Below, in pieces: positions 5,454-63,975 of a DNA stretch of 64,000 nucleotides. Source of the DNA: Calditrichia bacterium (lineage in GTDB: Bacteria; Calditrichota; Calditrichia; RBG-13-44-9; J075); the NCBI GenBank assembly GCA_028284445.1, contig JANQRS010000018.1:64001-128000 (forward strand), given 5' to 3'. Position 1 is the first letter of the stretch. Every line of letters starts with the position of its first letter. The position numbers and the translations under genes are program-made. The notes under the pieces were generated by a model. That model worked only from the letters and a program-made list of their open reading frames with translations, ran no database searches and was not told the DNA's origin.

Positions 5454-6560
5454 ATGTCATTCAAAATTAAGGCATTTAAAGACGATGTCTTGCAGGAAGC
5501 TGCAACAAGATATGCTCAGCACAAAGAGACAATTAACATTACACAGAAGTTAATTGTCGAAGGCCAGGGCATTCAATCGGAAACCCCGGAACGTTTAAAT
5601 CTATTTGCTGAACGAGAAAAAAGGCTGCTAGACGAAGAGGAAAAGATAAACAAGAATTGGGCAAACAGTTTCTCAAGCAGTAAAATAGAGCTTGGCGCAG
5701 AACGTAAGATTGGGCGCACGGACGACATATTGTCGATCGAGTTTCTTGAAGCCGGTCTACTTGCGGCAAAATCTGTGGGACGGTTGTCTGGTCTTGATAT
5801 GGGAACTGGCTTTTTGGTCGGACATAATATTCTGTTAACCAACCATCATGTTATTGAGAGCAGCGAAGACGCCTTTGGATATGACTTTGAATTAAATGCT
5901 GAAGAAGACAAATATGGCCTTCCTAAAAAGCTATTTACCTGTTCATTAAACCCGGATCGCTTTTTTCTCACTGATAAAACGCTGGATTTTACCTTTGTCG
6001 CGGTAGACGATCCAATCGGGGAAAATCTTCCGTTAGACAACTTTGGGTGGCATGTTCTGATTAAAGCGCAAGGTAAAATCCGAATCGGCGATCCGGTCAA
6101 CATTATTCAACACCCTGATGGCGGTGAAAAATCAATCGTTTTACATAACAGCAATTTCCTACTGCTCAAGGATGACATTCCGGACAAGCAATTTTGCTGG
6201 TATTCCGGTGACACAGAAACCGGTAGTTCCGGAGCGCCGGTGTTTAACAACCGTTGGGAAGTCGTTGCGGTCCACCACAAAGCTATTCCCCGAACTGACG
6301 AAAATGACAATATCTTGACCAAGAATGGTGAAACAATCTCTGAAGCGGAAGCACGAGCCAATCCCGAAAAAATAGACTGGGAAGCGAATGAAGGTATTCG
6401 CATTTCGAAAATCGTCGAGCACCTTGAACAGGCACACTTCAAACAACAAGACATGTCAACCATCCGGGACGAACTGATCAAACTCTGGAACAAAAGATCT
6501 GCCGGACGGGCCGGACTTCAGGCTGCAGCCAATCCCTTGAGCGGGCACATTTATGTTTAG
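5454..6560 (+). CDS. trypsin-like serine protease without export signal
   Basis: A 368-residue protein, ATG 5454, with GGGAGGA upstream. Residues 1-105 form a charged, helical, probably coiled-coil N-terminal region (AEREKRLLDEEEKI). The protease domain begins near 113: GTGFLVG...LLTNHHV gives catalytic His132, KTLDF gives Asp178 and TGSSGAPVF gives Ser259, in the order expected for the chymotrypsin fold. No signal peptide or transmembrane segment is visible, so the enzyme is probably cytoplasmic. Trypsin-like domains joined to helical adaptors and lacking signals are known from bacterial conflict (anti-invader) systems; a role of that kind is only an inference. Its divergent neighbour is a cytoplasmic SGNH hydrolase. 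Confidence 0.85.
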   Translation: MSFKIKAFKDDVLQEAATRYAQHKETINITQKLIVEGQGIQSETPERLNLFAEREKRLLDEEEKINKNWANSFSSSKIELGAERKIGRTDDILSIEFLEAGLLAAKSVGRLSGLDMGTGFLVGHNILLTNHHVIESSEDAFGYDFELNAEEDKYGLPKKLFTCSLNPDRFFLTDKTLDFTFVAVDDPIGENLPLDNFGWHVLIKAQGKIRIGDPVNIIQHPDGGEKSIVLHNSNFLLLKDDIPDKQFCWYSGDTETGSSGAPVFNNRWEVVAVHHKAIPRTDENDNILTKNGETISEAEARANPEKIDWEANEGIRISKIVEHLEQAHFKQQDMSTIRDELIKLWNKRSAGRAGLQAAANPLSGHIYV

Positions 6561-14981: not shown

Positions 14982-17888
14982 TCAAACCCGTTCAATTATT
15001 CGAGGCCGATGTATTTCGTCGGTAATCAATTCATTGTCCTGGCCGGTTTTTCTCTCGAGCATGCCCAGTATCCCGGGCAAAACGATAACCGTTGTAAGGA
15101 AACAGGCGCCGACACCAATGACAAGCGAACTGCCAAACCAGGCCCAGGCCGGGAACACCGAAAACATTAGCGAACCAAAAGCCAGCATCGTTGTCAGCGA
15201 GGTAAGCGAAATTGCTTTGCCGGTGCTGGCAAATATGGTCTTGATCTGTCCTCTGCCTTCATTCTGCCAGCGATGCATGATATGTACCCCATCATCAATG
15301 CCGATGCCGATGATTAAGGGCAGCCCCATTAGAGTCATAAAATTCAGCAGCAAGCCAACCCATTGCCAAATACCGACCATCCAGAAAGCACCCAATGCCA
15401 GGGGTATCATCGCCATAAGCGCATAACCGGGTTTCTTTAAGTCACCCCACAACAGGAAGAACACAATAACCAGGGTCAGCATCATGGCGTTGCGTCCATC
15501 GCGGGCGGCAATCTGAAGCCAGGCCTTTATTACCGGCGGACCGCCGGTTGTTTTTTCACTGACACGTTCTATATCGTCTACGAAGCGGTTTAAAGCGATT
15601 GAATTGATGGCCAATTGGCTTTCAGGGTAAATGGTAATCATAAACTTATCCCGCTCCGGATTGCTGTAGCGATCTAAAGCAGATACCGGTAAATCAGCCA
15701 GGGTGATTGGCTCCGTAGAGCACATGTCGATGACGCTTTGCCGGAAATAAGGTGAAAAGTGTTGTTGAAATTCTGACAGGCGCCTTATCGTTTTTGCTCT
15801 ATCGAAAGTAAGCGATGCCAATAAATCGCCGATCATATTCGCCGATTTGGGAGCATCCGGATCGCCGACGATTGATTTGCATTTGTTATCCACCTTGTCT
15901 TGGCCGCCGAAGTAGGCCATATCCTGCATCTCGATGATGTTCATTTCCAGGCGTTCAATCTCCTGAATAAGGATGGGAAATTCGCGCCGGCGGATCGATT
16001 GCCGGATCCCGGTCGATGACATTCTTTTGCGAATATCGGCAATATGAACGGCTCTCTCCTGCTGTTCATTTGCTGACGGAAGGTAGATCGAAATATCCGC
16101 CGTTCTGGCGACAGTGCTCAGATCACGATATTCCTCTGAAAGCCTGCGAGACGTTTCTGCATCATTGGCCAAACAGAGGGCGTATTCCATGCTTAGGTCA
16201 AACTTTTCCTTAATCGTGTCCATCAAGGCAATGGATTGCAGCCCTTTCGGCTCCATGCGAAGATAGTTTCGGTCGTATTCGATCTGCAAGGCAGACCAGA
16301 TCAGGAACGCGCTGACGATGGCTGCTCCTGCCAGCGTCACGCGGTAATGTTTGCCCAACCACTCCGCCCAGCGGCCCAGGTTTTTGAAGGAAATATCCTT
16401 AGCCACGACCGGTTGACCGCCGGCCTTCTTTTTGCGCCGCCTCTCAACCCAACGTTCCCGCAGGACCAGCATTACCGGCAAGAACAAGAGGGTTGCCAAC
16501 AATATCGAGAATAACCCGAAGCCGGTAACAATGCCCATTTCTTTCATACCGCGCGACTGGCTAATCAGCAGCGCGGAGAAGGCAAAAATCGTAGTAAGCG
16601 CACCGGTTATAATACCCTTACCGCTTTTCAGAAAGGTCTTTTCCAATGAATCTCCAATGCCATCCCCCGCTGCCCGCCATTCGGTAAAACCGGAAATCAA
16701 GTGGACAGCAAAGTCGATTCCCAAACCGAGGAGCAGCACTGAGAACAGCGCGGTCATCATATTCAGTTGTCCGACAGCCAGGTAGGCAGTGCCAAATGCC
16801 CAGATCAACCCGACGAACAAGGTAACGATAGCTAGAATAGGCGCTACCCACATCCGAAAGGCCACAACCAGCATCACCAGAATTGCGATCAGGGCAATCA
16901 CCGTGGTAAAGCTCAAACTCTCTTCCGAATGCACCTGTTCGTCGTGCTCACGGGCAATGTCTCCGCTCAACCCGGCGCGAACCTCAGGATGATTCTCAAG
17001 GGTTTCATCTAACAACAGTTGCATATGCTCATAGCCGGTCATAATCAAATCGCGATCCATGATGCTGAAATTGGGAATGACATTCAGGATTAGCGCAGAT
17101 TTGTCATACGAGAGGAAATAGGGCTCGCCAAGCAGAAACTTGTCTGCCGCTGTCTGCACTTCCATTTCGGAAAGCGGGGACCCGTTTGCAGCTTTCTGCA
17201 ACGTCTGCAATAACTGCTGAATACCATCCAGGAATCCTACTGCCTGATCTTCTTTTTCCCGGGTTGAGATGGATTCCTGCTGCCCTACATATTCCTTTTC
17301 CAGGGAATTATTGAGATTGGTCAGCAAACCGGTCAAATTTGGATCCATGAAGACGTCCTTGGTATTCTTCAAATCTTCCGCTTTGACCAGCATCAGGGCA
17401 TGCTTCTGCAAGAAATCGGTTTCAACTTTATAGTCAACCCGCTGGAACAACTGCATATCGATCCGTTTTTGCAATCGTTCAATTTCATCCTGCAGACTGT
17501 TAATTTCTGACGTTTTGTTCCCGGACTTTTCCAGGTCAGTGATCCTTTTTTGCAGGCCGGCAATGGCCTCTTCAAACGCTTCATTTTGACTGCTATCCCG
17601 CAATTCACTGACCCGTGGCGCCAGATCATCAGCAAAGTCTTTGATGCGCTGCTCTTCTCCCTGGACAACCACGATGATGCTGGTTGCCGTGGCGAATTCA
17701 TCAATAATCCGGTTAAACTCATCGACCTTCGGATCGCCTTCAGGCATCAAATCCTGTGTCCGCATCGTGATGGTCAACTGCTGGGCAAACCAACCTAGCG
17801 CAATCGTTGCGATTATAACTACCGGCAATATCCGCCAGGGATAATGGGTGTGCCAGTGTGCCAGTCTTATAAGAAATTTTTCTCTCAT
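14982..17888 (-). CDS. RND superfamily (MMPL/HpnN-like) exporter
   Basis: A 968-residue inner-membrane protein with two homologous halves. TM1 is near residues 19-38 (WRILPVVIIATIALGWF); a large periplasmic loop with a coiled coil (about 85-150) follows, then a TM cluster holding GLGIDFAVHLISGF. The second half repeats this with GIGIDDGVHIMHRW. The paired G-I-D signatures carry the proton-relay Asp residues of the family. Such proteins move lipids or hydrophobic compounds to the outer envelope. It is the last gene of an operon with a beta-barrel protein, a LolA-like protein and a 90-aa protein, so substrate passage from inner membrane through periplasm to outer membrane is a plausible system. 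A 201-bp spacer with a REP-like pair precedes it. Confidence 0.88.
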   Translation of the reverse strand: MREKFLIRLAHWHTHYPWRILPVVIIATIALGWFAQQLTITMRTQDLMPEGDPKVDEFNRIIDEFATATSIIVVVQGEEQRIKDFADDLAPRVSELRDSSQNEAFEEAIAGLQKRITDLEKSGNKTSEINSLQDEIERLQKRIDMQLFQRVDYKVETDFLQKHALMLVKAEDLKNTKDVFMDPNLTGLLTNLNNSLEKEYVGQQESISTREKEDQAVGFLDGIQQLLQTLQKAANGSPLSEMEVQTAADKFLLGEPYFLSYDKSALILNVIPNFSIMDRDLIMTGYEHMQLLLDETLENHPEVRAGLSGDIAREHDEQVHSEESLSFTTVIALIAILVMLVVAFRMWVAPILAIVTLFVGLIWAFGTAYLAVGQLNMMTALFSVLLLGLGIDFAVHLISGFTEWRAAGDGIGDSLEKTFLKSGKGIITGALTTIFAFSALLISQSRGMKEMGIVTGFGLFSILLATLLFLPVMLVLRERWVERRRKKKAGGQPVVAKDISFKNLGRWAEWLGKHYRVTLAGAAIVSAFLIWSALQIEYDRNYLRMEPKGLQSIALMDTIKEKFDLSMEYALCLANDAETSRRLSEEYRDLSTVARTADISIYLPSANEQQERAVHIADIRKRMSSTGIRQSIRRREFPILIQEIERLEMNIIEMQDMAYFGGQDKVDNKCKSIVGDPDAPKSANMIGDLLASLTFDRAKTIRRLSEFQQHFSPYFRQSVIDMCSTEPITLADLPVSALDRYSNPERDKFMITIYPESQLAINSIALNRFVDDIERVSEKTTGGPPVIKAWLQIAARDGRNAMMLTLVIVFFLLWGDLKKPGYALMAMIPLALGAFWMVGIWQWVGLLLNFMTLMGLPLIIGIGIDDGVHIMHRWQNEGRGQIKTIFASTGKAISLTSLTTMLAFGSLMFSVFPAWAWFGSSLVIGVGACFLTTVIVLPGILGMLERKTGQDNELITDEIHRPRIIERV

Positions 17889-18089: not shown

Positions 18090-19361
18090 CTAGAAGTAAA
18101 CCCGCAGGCGGAGTAGCCCGCCGTTTCCTGACTTCCTGTCATATGCTGTTCCCCGGCTACCCAAATTGACATTCAGATAGGCTATGGCATCGACGTTTTC
18201 CCAGAGACTGTAGTTCAAACTGGGTACTATGGCGAAGCTCTTATCGGAAATGCTACAGATCCCGGATATGCCGGTTTCGATCAAATCGGTTGCCGGGTGC
18301 CGGACCAGTACGTAAACCTGATCGCGAGATACCGTCTTCTGCTCGGCCGTGAAGAGGCGCATCCAGTCGTTCAGGGTATATTCTTTTTCATTGGTCTTAC
18401 CGAGGGTATTGCGGTAATACTCGACCATCAGAGATGACTGGAAATCAAAGGTATAGTCTGTGCCCAAAACCAATTCGTAAAAATCTTTGGACCTCTCCAT
18501 TCGATTATGGCCGTATTCCGCCCAAACTCCGAGCCCCAAAAGCTCGCCCGCCAGGCTTCCGCCCAGAACCTGCCTTTTCTCCGGCATTTCCAGAAAATTG
18601 GCCTTCGCTGCATCAAATTGAGTATAATCGTGGAATTGCCAGCGTGTTTCGATGCCGACCAGCGTATAATCAAAGCGCGAAATCCGCCCCTTAAAGCGCA
18701 ACATTTTGGCTGAGTTTCGCCAGGTGTCCTCAGGGGAATACAGCGCAGATATGGTATAATCCGAGCCTATGGGTACATCGAAGCGCAGGGCGTTGTGTCC
18801 AGGTTGCTCATAGGTTGGATCGAGAACGTCTTTGATATTAAAGACGTCCAGCGGATTCCAGACATAGCCGGTTCCCAGGGAAACTTGCTGTTTGCCGGCG
18901 ATCAGGTCAAAATATTTGAAAGCCAGTTTCAGGTAGGCATTGTCAAGAAAACTACGATCTGCAAAACGCAGGACGTAAAACTGGCTCATGGTTTGGGGAA
19001 CGCTGGAGACGATATCCGGTGAAAGAAAATCCAGGATGTTCCAGGTGGTCTTGCCATAATAAAGGATGTAGTCATAATTTGCTGTGAAAGTGATCTTCTC
19101 AGAGAAGCCGGATTTCAAGTCAATTCTCAGCTTGTTGGCATTGATTTGATAGAAATTACCCTTCACCTCAGCACCGCTGAGCTGGGATTCGAAATAGCCG
19201 AAGAGTTCAACCTGATCTTGCCCCCGGAGCGACGTTCCTGTGAGAATAAGCATCAGCAGTGAGAGAACTATGAACAATGGCCGGCTCCAGGCTGTACTCC
19301 CTTGATGGCAAGTTACCTGGAGACGATGGTAGCAGTCACGTTGTGAAAATGTGTCTTTCAT
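18090..19361 (-). CDS. putative outer-membrane beta-barrel protein
   Basis: A 423-residue protein. A signal segment lies at about residues 29-47 (FIVLSLLMLILTGTSL) after a polar N-terminus, so the start may be slightly downstream of ATG 19361. The rest is alternating aromatic/polar beta strands and turns (FGYFESQL, LRIDLKSGF, YDYILYYGK), ending LLRLRVYF with the terminal Phe favoured by outer-membrane barrels. SLGTGYVWNPLD is typical of alginate/DUF1302-like barrels. The ATG overlaps the stop of the LolA-like gene by 4 bp (ATGA), so translation is coupled. It probably forms the outer-membrane part of the RND-linked export system. Confidence 0.75.
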   Translation of the reverse strand: MKDTFSQRDCYHRLQVTCHQGSTAWSRPLFIVLSLLMLILTGTSLRGQDQVELFGYFESQLSGAEVKGNFYQINANKLRIDLKSGFSEKITFTANYDYILYYGKTTWNILDFLSPDIVSSVPQTMSQFYVLRFADRSFLDNAYLKLAFKYFDLIAGKQQVSLGTGYVWNPLDVFNIKDVLDPTYEQPGHNALRFDVPIGSDYTISALYSPEDTWRNSAKMLRFKGRISRFDYTLVGIETRWQFHDYTQFDAAKANFLEMPEKRQVLGGSLAGELLGLGVWAEYGHNRMERSKDFYELVLGTDYTFDFQSSLMVEYYRNTLGKTNEKEYTLNDWMRLFTAEQKTVSRDQVYVLVRHPATDLIETGISGICSISDKSFAIVPSLNYSLWENVDAIAYLNVNLGSRGTAYDRKSGNGGLLRLRVYF

Positions 19362-20119
19362 TTCTTCAATTCCCGCTCGCTAAACATCTTGTCGCTTAAT
19401 GCGACGTTGTATTTTATTTCCTGCAGTTCCATAACTGTTTGGGTATTATCATTCTGATTGTGCATTACGGCAATCATGGCCGTGGGAATACCGTCAACTA
19501 TGCGGATGTCACTTTGCGTCAAGCGCTTTTCATGCTGTGCCGGATCATCCTCGTCATAGTAGTCGATCACGATTGCATAGAAGTTTTCCTTGATGATCCA
19601 CATAACTATTCGCGAGTAGGAAACATCACTTTCCGGTTTGCGGGTCAGTTCAAGCTTATAACAATCATGGCCGTTCATCTTTTCGTCGTCTAATCTTTCT
19701 GCGGTAAAATCTTCGATAAAGGCATCACCGCTACCCATATCTTCATATGAGAAATCGCTGCCTTGCATTTTCTGTTTCTTGGCGTGGGTAGCAAGTTTGC
19801 GGACGCGCTGCGTGCGCGGAAAAAACATCCAGATGTCATCAGAATGATTCAGCATTAATATTGCCTGATCTTTTACTCGACGCGGCTCCAGGTAACGCAC
19901 CAGGCTTTTCTCTCCCCGGTTTTTCCCCCATGATTCAAATACGAAGGTGCGTTTCTGACCGGATGTCGTAACAATGGTCATTCTGGATTTCCCGTGGGCA
20001 GATTCAGGATTAAACAGGTCGTTCACTTTTTGGATTATCTCACTTCCGCTGAGATCCTGGGCGCACAAAGCAGACACGAAGAGATGTACGATAATCCCTG
20101 CAATCAATACCATTTTCAT
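19358..20119 (-). CDS. LolA-like outer-membrane lipoprotein-sorting protein
   Basis: Start ATG 20119 is chosen because GGAG lies about 8 nt upstream and the 253-residue product then opens with a clean signal peptide (KMVLIAGIIVHLFVSALCAQ). The mature part is a LolA/LppX-type half-barrel: SRMTIVTTSGQKRTF, EKSLVRYLEP, DIWMFFPRTQRVRKL, GSDFSYEDM, RIVMWIIKENFYAI. That order is the signature of the family that sits beside MMPL-type RND exporters. It likely shuttles a lipid or lipoprotein through the periplasm. It starts 13 bp after the stop of the 90-aa gene and overlaps the barrel gene by 4 bp. Confidence 0.88.
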   Translation of the reverse strand: MKMVLIAGIIVHLFVSALCAQDLSGSEIIQKVNDLFNPESAHGKSRMTIVTTSGQKRTFVFESWGKNRGEKSLVRYLEPRRVKDQAILMLNHSDDIWMFFPRTQRVRKLATHAKKQKMQGSDFSYEDMGSGDAFIEDFTAERLDDEKMNGHDCYKLELTRKPESDVSYSRIVMWIIKENFYAIVIDYYDEDDPAQHEKRLTQSDIRIVDGIPTAMIAVMHNQNDNTQTVMELQEIKYNVALSDKMFSERELKK

Positions 20120-20132
20120 TGGGCTTCTCCAT

Positions 20133-20405
20133 TTATTCGGGCTCGTGCGAAATCTTTGCATCGTCACAGCTGGAATGATCCCGCTCGATACGTTTTACCG
20201 ATAATAAGGTCAGATTCAAGTCACGGATTTTGATAAGCACGCCATGTAAGGCAGCCTGATCGACCAATGGACCGGTTAGAATAGAATTTGCCCCGTCGTG
20301 GCAGATATTCATGTCGTCAAACCAGTCGCTCCATTTTTTGTCGAGATGGCCTTTCAACCTGATTCGGTAAAACTGGGCGCTCTGTTGAAATTGTGATTTA
20401 GTCAT
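20133..20405 (-). CDS. conserved small protein of unknown function, 90 aa
   Basis: A short gene with GAGG a few bases before ATG 20405. The product has the pattern RLKGHLDKKWSDWFDD..., TGPLVDQAALHGVLIKIRDL and LLSVKRIE. I recall this RxxGHLDxxWxxWF / GPVxDQAALHGxLxKIRDLxLxLLSV pattern from many uncharacterised bacterial proteins, so it is a real conserved family and not a chance frame. No signal peptide or transmembrane helix. It is the first gene of the export operon, 13 bp before the LolA-like gene. The shared palindromic element lies 48 bp upstream of its start. A regulatory or sensor role is possible but unproven. Confidence 0.85.
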   Translation of the reverse strand: MTKSQFQQSAQFYRIRLKGHLDKKWSDWFDDMNICHDGANSILTGPLVDQAALHGVLIKIRDLNLTLLSVKRIERDHSSCDDAKISHEPE

Positions 20406-20453
20406 GGTGCCTCACTAAATGATCCAATAGAAACTTACATAGCACGGAGTGAC

Positions 20454-20481
20454 TTGTAATCACATCAAGATGTGATTTTGC
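20454..20481 (-). promoter_or_regulatory. shared palindromic promoter element, copy 1
   Basis: The 20-bp core 20458-20477 (AATCACATCAAGATGTGATT) is palindromic except for its two central bases. A 28-bp stretch around it (20454-20481) is identical, apart from those two bases, to 23244-23271. It ends 48 bp upstream of the 90-aa gene start. Sequence between element and gene is also similar in both places (CTCC, GCT.T, GTAA.TTT on the minus strand). This suggests a common operator and promoter. Confidence 0.8.
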
Positions 20482-20551
20482 GGGGGTGATTTTACGATGA
20501 GAGGGGAATGACAGGTATGCTCAGACAGACTTGACTCACCTACATGATGAG

Positions 20552-22006
20552 TCAAGCACCATTCCGAGGTAGCGGGGCCATTGAAGTGAGGCGCTTTTCC
20601 AAATCCAGGGGTAAACTCACGGTAAAGGTGCTGCCTTTACCAACCTGAGACTCGACCTCTACCTTTCCATGATGTTCCTGGACAATCTGGTAACAAATGG
20701 ACAATCCCAGCCCAACTCCCACGCCAACGCCCCAGGTAGTGAATCCAGGATCGAAGATCTTATTGAGATTCTTCTCCGGAATGCCTCTACCGGTATCGGA
20801 AACCACCACTTGAACGCTTTCCTCAAGAATGCGAGTGGACACAGTAATTTCCCCGCTTCGCTCAAATGCCTGATTGCTATTGCGGATTAGCTGCAAAAAC
20901 AATTGGTTCAGCTTGGCTGGATAGCAGGTGATGTCAGGAAGCTTGGCAAACCGGGTGCGAATGCTGATACCGGGTTTCAGTTCATTCTCCAGAATTGAGA
21001 TGGTGTCTTTCAAATTCTCATGTATATCAACTCTTTGAATCTCTGCTTCATCCAGGCAGGCAAAGGTCCTCAAACGCTTAACAATTGACGAGACTCGTTG
21101 CATGCCTTCCTCAACAACCTGCTGGCAGTTTTGAATGATGGACAAAATACTGGCGGCAGGCTGCATGGATTCTGCCTTTCCGGGGTCGGATGCATCAATA
21201 AGCTTATCCAGTTTTTTGACCGCCAGTTTGAGGGTGTTATTGGCGCTCTGCACAGCACCAACAGGATTGTTGAATTCATGGGCGACCCCGGCCACCAATC
21301 TTCCCAGAGCAGCCATCTTTTGCGATTGCACAACCTGGGTCTGGGCTTCGCGTAAATTCCGGTAGGCACGTTCCAATTGCGTCACAACAGTCTTGTTTTC
21401 CGTTATGTCGTGTGCAATGCCAATAAAGTAACACACCTCACCGGTATCGTCCTTTAGCACCGAAGCACTGGTGGTATGCCATCGCCATTTGCCGTCGCGA
21501 TGCTTGATCCGGTATTCAATACCACTCTGTTTTTCACCGGTTTCAATGACCTTCTGCAGAAATGCCCGGCATTTTTTCAAATCATCCGGATGAATTAATG
21601 GCTCAAAAGACCTCCCCAGGTTTTCCGATTCCGCATACCCCAAAACATTCTTTGAATTGGGAGAGATGTAAACGAAGGTGCCGGTTATAGCTAAAACGTA
21701 GATGATGTCGTTGGCGTTTTCGACAATCCCGCGGAACCGTTGCTCGCTTTCGCGAAGGGCCTTTTCGGTATGCTTGTGCTCGCGAATCTCCCGTTGCAAA
21801 GCATGGTTCATCTCGACCAGTTTCCCGGTGTGTTCCTTCAATTTGTTCTGGAGAAGCAGATTGGATTCAAATAAAGCATAAGAAGAACCGGCAACATCGG
21901 TGCTGTGCTCTACCCGATTCATTAAGGCTTCATTGACTTTCTTTAACCGTGCAATTTCTTCTTGAAAAGCGCGCATCTGTTCGACTTCACCCATTTCAAG
22001 AGGCAT
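20552..22006 (-). CDS. PAS-domain sensor histidine kinase
   Basis: A 484-residue soluble kinase. Residues 8-85 are coiled coil, 88-210 a PAS domain (RFRGIVENANDIIYV, then a PAC segment GKWRWHTT), and 230-250 the dimerisation box with phospho-acceptor His243 in VAHEFNNP. The ATPase domain follows: QLIRNSNQAF (N box), VSDTGRGIPEKN (G1), FDPGFTT, GVGLGLSICYQIV (G2). No membrane segment, so the signal is cytoplasmic. It begins 2 bp after the stop of the FIST-domain gene; the FIST protein probably supplies the sensory input. No receiver-domain partner is adjacent; the MalT-type regulator next door has no receiver. Confidence 0.92.
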   Translation of the reverse strand: MPLEMGEVEQMRAFQEEIARLKKVNEALMNRVEHSTDVAGSSYALFESNLLLQNKLKEHTGKLVEMNHALQREIREHKHTEKALRESEQRFRGIVENANDIIYVLAITGTFVYISPNSKNVLGYAESENLGRSFEPLIHPDDLKKCRAFLQKVIETGEKQSGIEYRIKHRDGKWRWHTTSASVLKDDTGEVCYFIGIAHDITENKTVVTQLERAYRNLREAQTQVVQSQKMAALGRLVAGVAHEFNNPVGAVQSANNTLKLAVKKLDKLIDASDPGKAESMQPAASILSIIQNCQQVVEEGMQRVSSIVKRLRTFACLDEAEIQRVDIHENLKDTISILENELKPGISIRTRFAKLPDITCYPAKLNQLFLQLIRNSNQAFERSGEITVSTRILEESVQVVVSDTGRGIPEKNLNKIFDPGFTTWGVGVGVGLGLSICYQIVQEHHGKVEVESQVGKGSTFTVSLPLDLEKRLTSMAPLPRNGA

Positions 22007-22008
22007 AG

Positions 22009-23190
22009 TTATTCTCCCAAGACAATTCCGGTAAATGTTTGATTAACATGCAATGAATTCGTTTGCTCCCCATATGTGCTAAACCCGATAACATTGTGGC
22101 GTTTCAGGATTTCGTTCACAGGGTTTTCCAGTGCCCGATCCATAATTTCAAGACGCCGGAGAATGCAATCGCAGCCAATTGTCAACTTTATATTCGGGAT
22201 TTTTTGCCGCACTTGATTAAACGCATGTTCCAAATTTTCCAACAAGTTTTCCCGTTTTGCAACGCGCAATACCAGGCCCTCATCGATAGCGCTGAAAAAA
22301 GTCAGGCTGCTGTCTTCATTTACTTTTTGAATAGATCTTACAAAGTATTCACCTCCCACACGAAGCATTAAGGGCCGGGCAAAATACACCAGGTGCTTTA
22401 TTTCCATCAAAGTCATTCCGATTACCCGGGCATATTCATCCGCGGCCGGGCGACCGTTAATCTCCTGAACCATACGTTTTTCCGGTGTTGCAGCAGTGAT
22501 CACCAACCGCTCATCCGTGGCTGCGAAATGTTGGGTTTTCATCAACGTAAAAGGCAGGGTCGTCATAAACAGGGTAAAAAGGGCAGCATCGGAATGAAAT
22601 TTCCCGTCGAAATAGACAAATGTTTCTTTGAACTTCAAGTCGTCTCCAGCCGACCCTCCGGCGATGGGTACATCTTCCAATGCATTGGCCAAAATCGCTG
22701 CAATGTATTCTTCCATGAGGGAGAGTCCATCGATCAACAGTAGACCGAACTCCCTTGCTTCAGGCATCACTTTGCGGGCTTTCGCTAAACGATCCTGAAT
22801 TTCCTTGACCGTTTTCTTCATCCAGCCAGAATCAAATTTGCGTAGGTTAGGGAGCAAAAACGGATAAGCCTGCAATCTATCGCTGGCAATACTAAAGCCC
22901 ACCAGCGTGCCTTGTATGTATCCATCCGGTGTGATTTCTCCGGCAGTGGTACAGCCGAAGAGAGGGGTTTGGAAAGCCTCGTGAAGTTTCTCTGCTAACC
23001 GTCCCAGATTATAGTCGGACGAAGCAAATAAGACAACTACAGCAGCATCTGGCTGATCTATTTGCCGAACCAGCTGGCGAACTGCTACTGACTCATCCCG
23101 GGAACTCGAAAAGCCCTTTTTTACACTGATTTGGGGGTCTTTTTTGTCCGAGCCATCTATCCCGGTCAACAAGTTGCCGTTCAATTTCAT
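22009..23190 (-). CDS. FIST N/C domain sensory protein
   Basis: A 393-residue protein with the FIST N domain (VVLFASSDYN, FGCTTAGEITPDGY, IAGGSAGDD) and the FIST C domain (RPAADEYARVIG, YFVRSIQKVNED). FIST domains are thought to bind small ligands such as amino acids and usually feed histidine kinases or cyclases. The ATG at 23190 lies 53 bp after the shared palindromic element. GGGG upstream serves as Shine-Dalgarno. The kinase gene starts 2 bp beyond the stop, so both are made together. No signal peptide. The pair forms a split sensor kinase. Confidence 0.9.
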   Translation of the reverse strand: MKLNGNLLTGIDGSDKKDPQISVKKGFSSSRDESVAVRQLVRQIDQPDAAVVVLFASSDYNLGRLAEKLHEAFQTPLFGCTTAGEITPDGYIQGTLVGFSIASDRLQAYPFLLPNLRKFDSGWMKKTVKEIQDRLAKARKVMPEAREFGLLLIDGLSLMEEYIAAILANALEDVPIAGGSAGDDLKFKETFVYFDGKFHSDAALFTLFMTTLPFTLMKTQHFAATDERLVITAATPEKRMVQEINGRPAADEYARVIGMTLMEIKHLVYFARPLMLRVGGEYFVRSIQKVNEDSSLTFFSAIDEGLVLRVAKRENLLENLEHAFNQVRQKIPNIKLTIGCDCILRRLEIMDRALENPVNEILKRHNVIGFSTYGEQTNSLHVNQTFTGIVLGE

Positions 23191-23243
23191 TGTGGCATCC
23201 CCTTTCGCTATTCTCCTCTAAAATTTACGAAAGCGGGAGCGGT

Positions 23244-23271
23244 TTGTAATCACATCTTGATGTGATTTTGC
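23244..23271 (-). promoter_or_regulatory. shared palindromic promoter element, copy 2
   Basis: Core 23248-23267 (AATCACATCTTGATGTGATT) is a perfect 20-bp palindrome. The surrounding 28 bp match copy 1 at 20454-20481 except for the two central bases. It ends 53 bp before the FIST gene start and begins just upstream of the stop-side of the MalT-like gene. The likely reader is a dimeric regulator, possibly that neighbouring protein. Confidence 0.8.
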
Positions 23272-23292: not shown

Positions 23293-26058
23293 TCATAATA
23301 TGCCCATTTCTTTTGCTTTCACAACAGCCTGAGTTCGACTATGCACGTTCAATTTCGCATTGATATGCTTGGTATGGGTTCTCACGGTATTTAATGAAAC
23401 GAACAACTTATCGGCAACCCCCTGATTTGAATATCCGGCAGCGATCAGAGCCAGCACTTCGACTTCCCGTTTACTGAGGGTTTCCATCAGATCATCATCA
23501 ATTTGGGGCGGCTGCTTTACCTTGAAACAGAATAGCACTTTCTTAACATAGGATGCTGAGAATCCAGCATCTTTTTGACTTTCACCATGTTCTTTTGCGC
23601 TTAGGGCTTTTTCCAGTAAATTGGCAACCGCCGGGCCTTGATCGACGAAAATATTCACATAACCATGCGGTTCAGCGATAGACAGTGCCTCAGCAATATC
23701 TGAAACCGCTTCATTAGACGTGCCGTTTTTCTGCAATGCCAATGCACGGAGTATCAGGACCTCGATGACCCGGGTAATTCGCTCAAATGTCTTCGCATCG
23801 GGAAGCACTCTTGTCAATAGCTTCTCCGCCTCTGCAAATTGCTCTCGAGCAGTTAAAACGCGGGCAAGCATCATGTATTCTGCCTCGCGCATGACGGTCG
23901 GTTCATCATCATATTTTAATTGCCGCTGCTCTGCCCACCGAGTCGCTGCATCCAGATCATCCTCCATAAGATAGAGCTGCGCCTTGCGGGCTTCGATCAA
24001 GTTGACAACCCAGGGAGGCACATACGATTCACTGGCCGTTTTTTCCATCTTCCGGATAACCTTGGATGCCCGCGCGGTATCTCCTCTGATAAATAGCACC
24101 CTTAATAAACAAAGGTAACTCCAGCTGAGCATCGTCACATCATGTCCCTGTTCGCAAAGATCAGCGCCCTTGTTCACATATAGGAAGGAATCGCGCGGAT
24201 CATTCATCTCAGCCAGGACTTCTCCCCACATTGAATAGGCCATACCAACCATTGGTGTTTGCGATAAACCAATTTTGTCGGCAAGCTTAATCTGCTGCTG
24301 ACAAATATCAATCATTTGCAGCAATTGCCCGCGGACTCTGTGATTTACCGCCAATTTTATGTTGGCAATTTGGATGAGATAGATGTTATTGGCTGCCTGG
24401 CTGGCCGCTAAAGCTTCAGAATAGGCATTGCCAGCTGCGATTGCATCACCGCTTAGACTATGTGCATCTCCCAATGCAATGCCGGCCATGCTTCGCCATG
24501 TCAGGCTCTCTCCGGGGAGATATTTCAGTGCATAGCGAGCACGTTGGATGATCGAGGGAATATCCCCTTTAAAAGCAACCATAATTGCCCGAATTGCCGC
24601 TATTTTGCCTTGCAGATTTCGCTTACTGTCTTCATCAAGTCGCTTCCCAGTGTCTGAAGAGACGTCCTTTTCGACACTCGTCAGTCCGAGAAGCTCTTCA
24701 GCAACAACCAGGTTCTCCTCTGCCAGTTGCGGTTGCCCTTTGGCCATCAGCACCCAGGCATGATAAACACAAAGGAGCGGTCTGGAATAAACAGATTGTT
24801 CCGGTAGTAATGTCAGCCAGTTAAGCAGTTTAGTATGAGCCCCATGCTCCCAAACCGTTTCAATCCGTTTCTCGACAATTTGCGCGGCTTGCTCAAAGTC
24901 TTCTGATATGAATGCATGATCTAGTGCTTCGTCCATGAATCCGTTTGCTTCATACCAATCACATGCACGACGATGCAAGTCGGCGATTATTCCCGCCTGG
25001 GTCCGGTTTAACAGGTTGCGTAGTAGATCGGCAAAAAGCTGATGATAGCGAAACCAGTGCCGCTCGTTATCCAATGGGAAGATGAACTGATTGGTTTCTT
25101 CCAGTTGATTGAGCAATTCCTGGCTGCTTTGCCGATCACATACGGCATCGCATAGCGATCCGGAAAGTCGTTTCAGTATTGATGTCTGTAGCAAAAAGTT
25201 TTGCACTTTCTCCGGCTGGCGATTGAGTACTACCTCAATGAAATAATCAGCTACATAACGATCATGTCCGGTAAACGATTTGATAAAATCGGAAAAATTG
25301 TCCTGATCGTGCATGGACAAGACCGCTAATTGTAGTCCGGCAATCCAGCCTTCTGTAAGTGATTCGAGTACAGCGACCTCATTCTCCGCAAGGTCAAAAC
25401 CAGATATATCATTAACGAAACAGGCCGTTTCCTCAGTAGTGAAGCAGAGATCGGCAGAGCGAATTTCGACCAACTGGTTTTGGCTGCGCAAACGCGCCAG
25501 GGCCAGCGGTGGATCCGAACGAGTAACGATGACCAGGTGCATTTGCTGTGGCTGATGCTCCAACAGAAACATGATAATCTTATGTATTTGCTGGTTATCA
25601 ATCAGGTGATAATCATCCAGCACCAACACGAAATCTACCGGTATCACACTGATATCATTGATAAGATTGATAAGGAGAGTCGTGATTGGCGGTGGCTGCG
25701 GTGATCTCAGGATGCTGGTAGATGCCTTATTGATATTGGCGTCGATCTTCTGAAGAGCAGCAATCAGGTAGTTGATGAATAGTGATGGTTCATTATCGCC
25801 TTTATCGAGTGAGAGCCAGGCTGTCGGCGTGATATTCCCGGCCAACCATTCGCTAACAAGGGTGGTCTTACCAAATCCGGCAGGTGCCGACACCAAAATA
25901 GCTGATTTGTCACTAGCAGCATCAGCCAGTTTTCCGACCAGTCGTTGCCGGGATACCATGGCTGGACGAAAGGGTGGAATAAACAGCTTTGTAGCCAGAA
26001 GGGGATGTGATTCATTGATGCTGCTCGTCTGATCATTTTCAGATAATCTGCTCGGCAC
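23293..26058 (-). CDS. MalT-type ATP-dependent LuxR family regulator
   Basis: A 921-residue STAND-type transcription activator starting at GTG 26058 with GGGGAG upstream. Residues about 55-70 hold the Walker A motif SAPAGFGKTTLV; FVLVLDDYH is Walker B and IVTRSDPP the sensor. A TPR-like helical region spans about 400-830. The last 65 residues are a LuxR helix-turn-helix: LSKREVEVLALIAAGYSN, then TVRTHTKHINAKLNVHSR. Such proteins bind a small inducer and ATP, oligomerise and activate promoters. It lies just upstream of the FIST-kinase operon, in the same direction, and is a good candidate to act at the shared palindromes. That link is inferred from position only. Confidence 0.92.
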   Translation of the reverse strand: MPSRLSENDQTSSINESHPLLATKLFIPPFRPAMVSRQRLVGKLADAASDKSAILVSAPAGFGKTTLVSEWLAGNITPTAWLSLDKGDNEPSLFINYLIAALQKIDANINKASTSILRSPQPPPITTLLINLINDISVIPVDFVLVLDDYHLIDNQQIHKIIMFLLEHQPQQMHLVIVTRSDPPLALARLRSQNQLVEIRSADLCFTTEETACFVNDISGFDLAENEVAVLESLTEGWIAGLQLAVLSMHDQDNFSDFIKSFTGHDRYVADYFIEVVLNRQPEKVQNFLLQTSILKRLSGSLCDAVCDRQSSQELLNQLEETNQFIFPLDNERHWFRYHQLFADLLRNLLNRTQAGIIADLHRRACDWYEANGFMDEALDHAFISEDFEQAAQIVEKRIETVWEHGAHTKLLNWLTLLPEQSVYSRPLLCVYHAWVLMAKGQPQLAEENLVVAEELLGLTSVEKDVSSDTGKRLDEDSKRNLQGKIAAIRAIMVAFKGDIPSIIQRARYALKYLPGESLTWRSMAGIALGDAHSLSGDAIAAGNAYSEALAASQAANNIYLIQIANIKLAVNHRVRGQLLQMIDICQQQIKLADKIGLSQTPMVGMAYSMWGEVLAEMNDPRDSFLYVNKGADLCEQGHDVTMLSWSYLCLLRVLFIRGDTARASKVIRKMEKTASESYVPPWVVNLIEARKAQLYLMEDDLDAATRWAEQRQLKYDDEPTVMREAEYMMLARVLTAREQFAEAEKLLTRVLPDAKTFERITRVIEVLILRALALQKNGTSNEAVSDIAEALSIAEPHGYVNIFVDQGPAVANLLEKALSAKEHGESQKDAGFSASYVKKVLFCFKVKQPPQIDDDLMETLSKREVEVLALIAAGYSNQGVADKLFVSLNTVRTHTKHINAKLNVHSRTQAVVKAKEMGIL

Positions 26059-52212: not shown

Positions 52213-52260
52213 CCACATCCCCCTGTATCCCCCTTCGAAGGGGGATACAGGGGGATGTGG
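52213..52260. repeat. perfect 48-bp GC-rich palindrome, TTCGAA type
   Basis: Bases 52213-52236 (CCACATCCCCCTGTATCCCC, CTTC) are the exact reverse complement of 52237-52260, with no loop. It lies 6 bp before the stop-side end of the GH13 gene (52266), between that gene and the GH4 gene. It is the cleanest member of the family. Confidence 0.92.
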
Positions 52261-58862: not shown

Positions 58863-58900
58863 CCCCCCTCCATCTCCCCCCGGGGGGAGATGGAGGGGGG
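58863..58900. repeat. perfect GC-rich palindrome, CCCGGG type
   Basis: CCCCCCTCCATCTCCCCCC pairs perfectly with its reverse complement GGGGGGAGATGGAGGGGGG; the palindrome extends through flanking AAT/ATT to about 58860-58903. It lies between the CRTAC1 gene and the SusD gene. Confidence 0.92.
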
Positions 58901-63932: not shown

Positions 63933-63975
63933 AATCCCCCCTCTATCTCCCCCGGGGGGAGATAGAGGGGGGATT
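63933..63975. repeat. GC-rich palindrome, CCCGGG type
   Basis: AATCCCCCCTCTATCTCCCC pairs with GGGGAGATAGAGGGGGGATT with one extra G at the centre. It is upstream of the SusC promoter, so unlike the others in the locus it lies before the first gene and not between two co-transcribed genes. Confidence 0.85.

Follow-up and report, generated by a model that had tools for sequence, protein, structure and literature searches.

The window analysed in the present study is one stretch of 64,000 nucleotides, in which two operons share a palindromic promoter element. The genes under study are all encoded on the minus strand, in the order LuxR, site 2, FIST, kinase, site 1, p90, LolA-like, 423-aa and MMPL/RND. 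The features are as follows.

23293..26058, minus strand: MalT-type (LAL/STAND) LuxR regulator with recognition helix SLNTVRTHTKH, the proposed binder of both operators
23248..23267, minus strand: candidate operator 2, dyad AATCACATC-AA-GATGTGATT, upstream of the FIST gene
23222..23227, minus strand: -10-like hexamer TAAATT of operator 2, starting 30 nt from the dyad centre
22009..23190, minus strand: FIST-N/FIST-C protein, NosP-like (family scan)
20552..22006, minus strand: PAS histidine kinase, starting 2 bp past the FIST gene
20483..20491, minus strand: upstream direct half-site AATCACCCC of operator 1 (from the sequence)
20458..20477, minus strand: candidate operator 1, dyad AATCACATC-TT-GATGTGATT, upstream of the 90-aa gene, centre near -42
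20446..20452, minus strand: downstream direct half-site TCACTCC of operator 1, with the offset that TCACCAC has in class-A sites of Chloroflexota
20432..20437, minus strand: -10-like hexamer TAAGTT of operator 1, starting 30 nt from the dyad centre
20133..20405, minus strand: p90, a 90-aa protein, first gene of the envelope operon, no family match
19358..20167, minus strand: LolA-like outer-membrane lipoprotein-sorting protein (PF17131; family scan)
18090..19361, minus strand: 423-aa protein, the barrel of the original prediction, no family match
14982..17888, minus strand: MMPL/RND transporter (family scan)

The regulator has the make-up of a MalT-type LuxR protein of about 900 aa, with an ATPase, a MalT-like TPR region and a C-terminal GerE HTH: PF17874 and PF00196 scored above cut-off, AAA_16 stood just below it (29.6 of 32.6 bits) and the P-loop reads GFGKTT. 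It is not MalT in the strict sense (474.7 bits with NCBIfam NF003420, cut-off 537). The FIST protein likewise stands below the NosP model (NCBIfam NF041558, 424.9 bits, cut-off 450) and had no match among the phylum's other 39 genomes. The p90 protein is absent from Pfam, NCBIfam, PHROGs and the PDB sequences; its fold, predicted from the single sequence (pLDDT 66, pTM 0.33), was set aside. A relative of the 423-aa protein adjoins LolA and MMPL genes in G018, a genome of the window's class and another family. The RND protein resembles the hopanoid and sterol transporters HpnN and BstA, with scores under both cut-offs. At the end of the kinase gene, a hairpin with 9-bp arms (CTTGACTCA/TGAGTCAAG, 20530-20556) overlaps the stop codon, and it is possible that it marks a transcript end between the two operons.

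Two sites and their promoters

Two 28-bp blocks, one at 20454-20481 (TTGT-AATCACATC(AA)GATGTGATT-TTGC) and the same with a TT centre at 23244-23271, differ in the 2 central bases alone. Each holds the 20-bp palindrome AATCACATCnnGATGTGATT (20458-20477 and 23248-23267), and they end 48 and 53 bp ahead of the ATG codons at 20405 and 23190. Operator 2 starts 25 bp past the LuxR stop codon, and both sites lie in promoters at most 2.9 kb from the LuxR gene. Thus the coordinates and distances of the original prediction, which had described two blocks alike save for their centre, were confirmed. The same prediction had found the sequence between element and gene to be alike, and this also held: the two promoters agree at about 16 of 26 positions, and the common GTAA.TTT stands where related promoters hold the -10 hexamer. 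Both promoters have a -10 and no recognisable -35.

The scan of the genome that had been proposed, for the palindrome with up to two mismatches, gave two promoter sites only and no random places: both matches in the 8.19 Mb searched (94% complete) are those of the window. At up to three mismatches the 64-kb window still held 2 matches, where shuffles expect 0.03, and the whole genome held 4 further ones at three mismatches, against our chance estimate of about 3. The 26-bp core AAAATCACATCnnGATGTGATTACAA is absent at 3 mismatches from the phylum's other genomes (40 in all, of one class). No palindrome like the shared one was found at the paralogous MalT-type genes of the window genome and of G005, and a one-mismatch match in G031 was taken as chance as it lies within an ORF. 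Among 85k species genomes, the exact palindrome gave 15 matches (our chance estimate being about 4); their taxa are scattered and unrelated, so that the exact string does not qualify as a widespread motif. Given its uniqueness in the genome and its absence elsewhere in the phylum, the pair is not chance, a repeat family or a general motif, and two sites only, both beside one regulator gene, point to that gene. Dispersed G+C-rich palindromes of another kind (CTCTATCTCCCCC..GGGGGAGATAGAG) were seen at 52226-52247, 58871-58892 and 63943-63965 of the window, and in L051 and L052, on several contigs of this genome.

CRP sites have the orientation TGTGA...TCACA. A CRP-like site was rejected, as the half-sites here (TCACA...TGTGA) are inverted relative to it.

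The LuxR-p90 module in other genomes

In G018, a relative of the regulator is followed directly by a relative of p90. The LolA-RND operon of that genome was considered as a counterpart of the window operon and rejected, since it is without p90 and without the G018-type element and has a separate 203-aa ORF directly upstream. The p90 gene recurs in other phyla, mainly in Chloroflexota, and was found on plasmids of Chlorohelix, the cyanobacterium Acaryochloris, Pseudomonas and Deinococcus, always preceded by a MalT-type LuxR gene in the same orientation; on the Acaryochloris plasmid other genes stand between, the LuxR gene being 3.6 kb from p90, and in Chlorohelix an MMPL transporter gene comes right after p90, as in the window operon. 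A profile search was positive in 83 of 400 genomes which we take to be Chloroflexota (G663 shares the LuxR-p90 locus of the Chlorohelix plasmid). Among 75 p90 copies examined with their flanks (one plasmid counted twice), 62 are preceded on their own strand by a LuxR gene that ends at most 3 kb away, mostly at a distance of 85-400 bp, and several of the other copies are close to contig ends. No p90 was found in viral contigs, and no published description of the LuxR-p90 module was found among open papers. The window has this order too: the MalT-type LuxR gene precedes p90 on one strand, and the FIST-kinase operon separates them.

The p90 domain also occurs in frame with DUF6326 (L129), an unassigned region (L136), a zinc dehydrogenase (L142), DUF4386 (L093) and a glyoxalase domain (L186), which suggests a ligand-linked or targeting domain. 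In two Deinococcus plasmids (L091 and L092, around 6001-6228) the p90 match crosses a stop codon and is unannotated, and the upstream LuxR gene is annotated.

The gaps between LuxR and p90 share one layout, in which a 20-bp dyad, a third half-site and a -10 follow each other at one spacing. In class A the operator reads AATCACCACATGTGGTGATGCCTTCTCACCACATTCATRGGTATATT, and window site 1 (AATCACATCTTGATGTGATTACAAGTCACTCCGTGCTATGTAAGTTT) aligns to it without gaps over the dyad, the third half-site TCAC and the -10. The left half AATCACATC of the window dyad is identical in L090, L130 and L139, and the inner dyad ATCnnGAT of the window differs from the commonest class-A form CACATGTG. An upstream half-site is similarly present in the Chloroflexota sites, 12 bp before the dyad there and 14 bp at window site 1; site 2 has no clear copy of the upstream or the downstream half-site. 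Class-B operators read CAACACTT..GTGTCT and variants. In the gaps of loci with regulators of the VKVHARN type (L157, L148, L093 and L146) an inverted repeat TACCTCG...GAGGTA was seen, perhaps a further operator class.

For scoring of the window, we used matrices built from loci of other genomes only. Site 1 was the top of the window with 33 columns (17.5 vs 12.6) and the top of the 64 kb with 48 columns (18.1 vs 11.1, a difference of 7 bits). With the 20-column dyad matrix, both window sites were on top and barely above background (13.4 vs 12.9). Site 2 was sixth in the 33-column scan because the third half-site is missing. Counted from the dyad centre, TATAAT is matched best at offset 31 over the loci of both classes (18 of class A, 24 of class B), and the -10 stands at offset 30-31 in both operator classes, which places the dyad centre near -42. 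The window sites thus have the operator class that fits the helix of their regulator and the -10 at 30-31 nt from the centre, site 2 being without the third half-site.

A search for class-A elements in ten Chloroflexota genomes (3.5-11 Mb) gave one locus in each, the LuxR-p90 locus, with the element once or twice per locus. In G683, two elements lie about 8 kb apart, the second ahead of a dehydrogenase-like gene, and in G417 a second element, of class A', lies ahead of a putative DUF4386 gene and downstream of an MMPL-like ORF (both read from the sequence); the additional match in G761 is the same palindrome on the opposite strand. Local regulons of two operons thus appear to occur outside the window genome too. 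The FIST-kinase unit was found in no LuxR-p90 locus other than that of the window, so the duplicated operator is the sole argument for the FIST branch.

Recognition helix and operator class

With the window left out, class-A sites (AATC[AC]C...) were present in 18 of 18 loci whose regulator has an R[TS]HT helix and in 0 of 46 others, and class-B sites in 24 of 25 loci with a VKGHN helix and in 0 of 38 others. The 25th VKGHN locus is that of G018, which scored 7.0 bits at a threshold of 9 and has a related CAGTACTTTAGTAT ahead of its p90 gene. For class-A loci, an SLNT helix is in most cases paired with TCACCACA and an ALST helix with CCCCACA. Fisher tests of helix versus operator gave about 1e-16 each, figures which overstate the case because of relatedness among the loci, because the same groups served to fit the matrices (the scored locus being left out) and because the class labels were drawn after the sequences had been seen.

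A better argument comes from a tree of the LuxR proteins with the HTH left out, made by a quick method, where well-supported branches require 5 or more changes of the R[TS]HT label. L138 and L139 are 76% identical over a body of 845 aa; their helices differ and the operators match each helix, so that the pair appears to be a natural swap of the DNA-binding domain. In addition, identity is 65% between L130 (class A) and L134 (class B), and 67% between L131 (class B) and L149 (class A). The body of the window LuxR protein is about equally distant from both groups (38-39%), its helix is of the R[TS]HT type, and this is paired with a class-A-type site. RTHT was present in none of the other LuxR-type helices read in the window genome among proteins above the search threshold, L192 being without a readable helix.

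Discussion

In the present study, the shared palindrome is most probably bound by the adjacent MalT-like regulator (23293-26058). On the sequence comparisons above, we consider it highly probable that the two dyads are the only operators of this regulator in the genome, and that it activates the p90-LolA-barrel-RND and FIST-kinase operons jointly. The original prediction had proposed a single regulon, perhaps under the control of the MalT-type LuxR protein next to it, and the linkage of LuxR and p90, the common operator architecture and the match of helix and class all support it. The tie which it had drawn between the FIST kinase and envelope export stands only as a probable co-regulation in this one genome. 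The comparison of orthologous upstream regions, which it had called for, has to be recast: the exact string is unconserved in the phylum and no FIST match was found in its other 39 genomes, and the conserved part is the LuxR-p90 module together with the cognate operator of each copy.

The following mechanism is proposed. With inducer and ATP bound, the LuxR protein would multimerise, and its GerE domains would bind the 20-bp dyad, whose centre would lie near -42. At the p90 promoter they would bind the flanking direct half-sites too; the stronger of the two sites would be the one at p90. The protein would then recruit RNA polymerase to promoters with a -10 and no recognisable -35, by which the p90-LolA-barrel-RND and FIST-histidine kinase operons would be switched on together, and the NosP-like FIST protein with its kinase may act as a second sensory input while the module is on. 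The sites and their uniqueness, the promoter geometry, the linkage of LuxR and p90 and the pairing of helix with operator class are read directly from the sequence; the binding of LuxR, activation and not repression, the inducer and the roles of the operons are inferred.

MalT itself, with inducer and ATP, forms a multimer, binds its boxes cooperatively and recruits RNA polymerase (PMC4381067). In the maltose-regulated region of Actinoplanes sp. SE50/110, a MalT-like LuxR activator acts on neighbouring operons through a palindrome that covers their -35 (PMC7567727). Activation at both window promoters is proposed from the mechanism of MalT together with this similar geometry. It is unlikely that the same LuxR protein binds both dyads as a ligand-released repressor, or activates at one and represses at the other; some LAL-family LuxR regulators do repress (SCO6993, PMC9628970), but the dyad centre about 42 bp before the start, with a -35 region unlike the consensus, and the same geometry in 42 sites of two sequence classes argue against it, as does the fit to the Actinoplanes activator (PMC7567727).

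Still less probable is that another transcription factor binds the palindrome. A short perfect palindrome by itself would suit many factors and site 2 is without a flanking half-site, but the two sites of the genome both adjoin this LuxR gene, and the operator class tracks the LuxR recognition helix over independent helix changes. A mobile or structural repeat (a MITE or REP hairpin, or a terminator) or a recent chance duplication, non-regulatory in either case, would account for a perfect palindrome in a genome which has other dispersed palindromic repeats, but can practically be dismissed with two copies only, at equal distance to a -10-like element, and with related elements at the same promoter position in other phyla.

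Joint activation by the neighbouring LuxR protein also agrees with known systems in several respects. As in Actinoplanes, the MalT-type LuxR gene lies amid its proposed targets and neighbouring operons would be acted on, and the distance from the 3' end of the palindrome to the start is about 34 nt there and would be about 33 in the window if the -10 is right (PMC7567727). The operators differ (TCATCC-N5-GGATGA there, AATCACATC-N2-GATGTGATT in the window), 17 promoters are controlled there compared with two here, and no p90 gene is reported for the region in the accessible text (PMC7567727). The window LuxR protein shares with MalT of Escherichia coli and Klebsiella the domain order of ATPase, TPR-like region and GerE. 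The MalT box, quoted as GGGGA(T/G)GAGG repeats, is unlike the window dyad (PMC7567727), and unlike MalT systems the window has no maltose gene among the annotated neighbours. In the Chloroflexota and other LuxR-p90 modules, LuxR lies upstream of p90 with the same operator architecture, whereas in the window the FIST-kinase operon, with a second operator, lies between them; the other modules carry DUF4386, DUF6326, zinc dehydrogenases, a glyoxalase domain or an MMPL protein as downstream cargo. The FIST gene adjoins a histidine kinase gene as in the nitric-oxide pair NosP-NosK (PMC12570481), though the window FIST protein is below the NosP cut-off and has no directly adjoining response-regulator gene.

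Beyond the window, we lean moderately towards the view that LuxR-p90 is a widespread, horizontally spread cassette in which helix and operator change jointly by swaps of the DNA-binding domain, and that the window cassette captured the FIST-kinase operon as a second target. As helix and operator class change jointly, targets would on this cassette reading be predictable from the helix. MalT-type LuxR proteins are common and their targets are mostly obscure; here the target sites can be read from the DNA. Each of two helix types goes with an operator class of its own, and close relatives differ in both, which makes a protein-DNA recognition code directly testable. Furthermore, p90 is an uncatalogued small domain tied to MalT-type LuxR regulators, which stands beside, or is fused to, membrane proteins and oxidoreductases.
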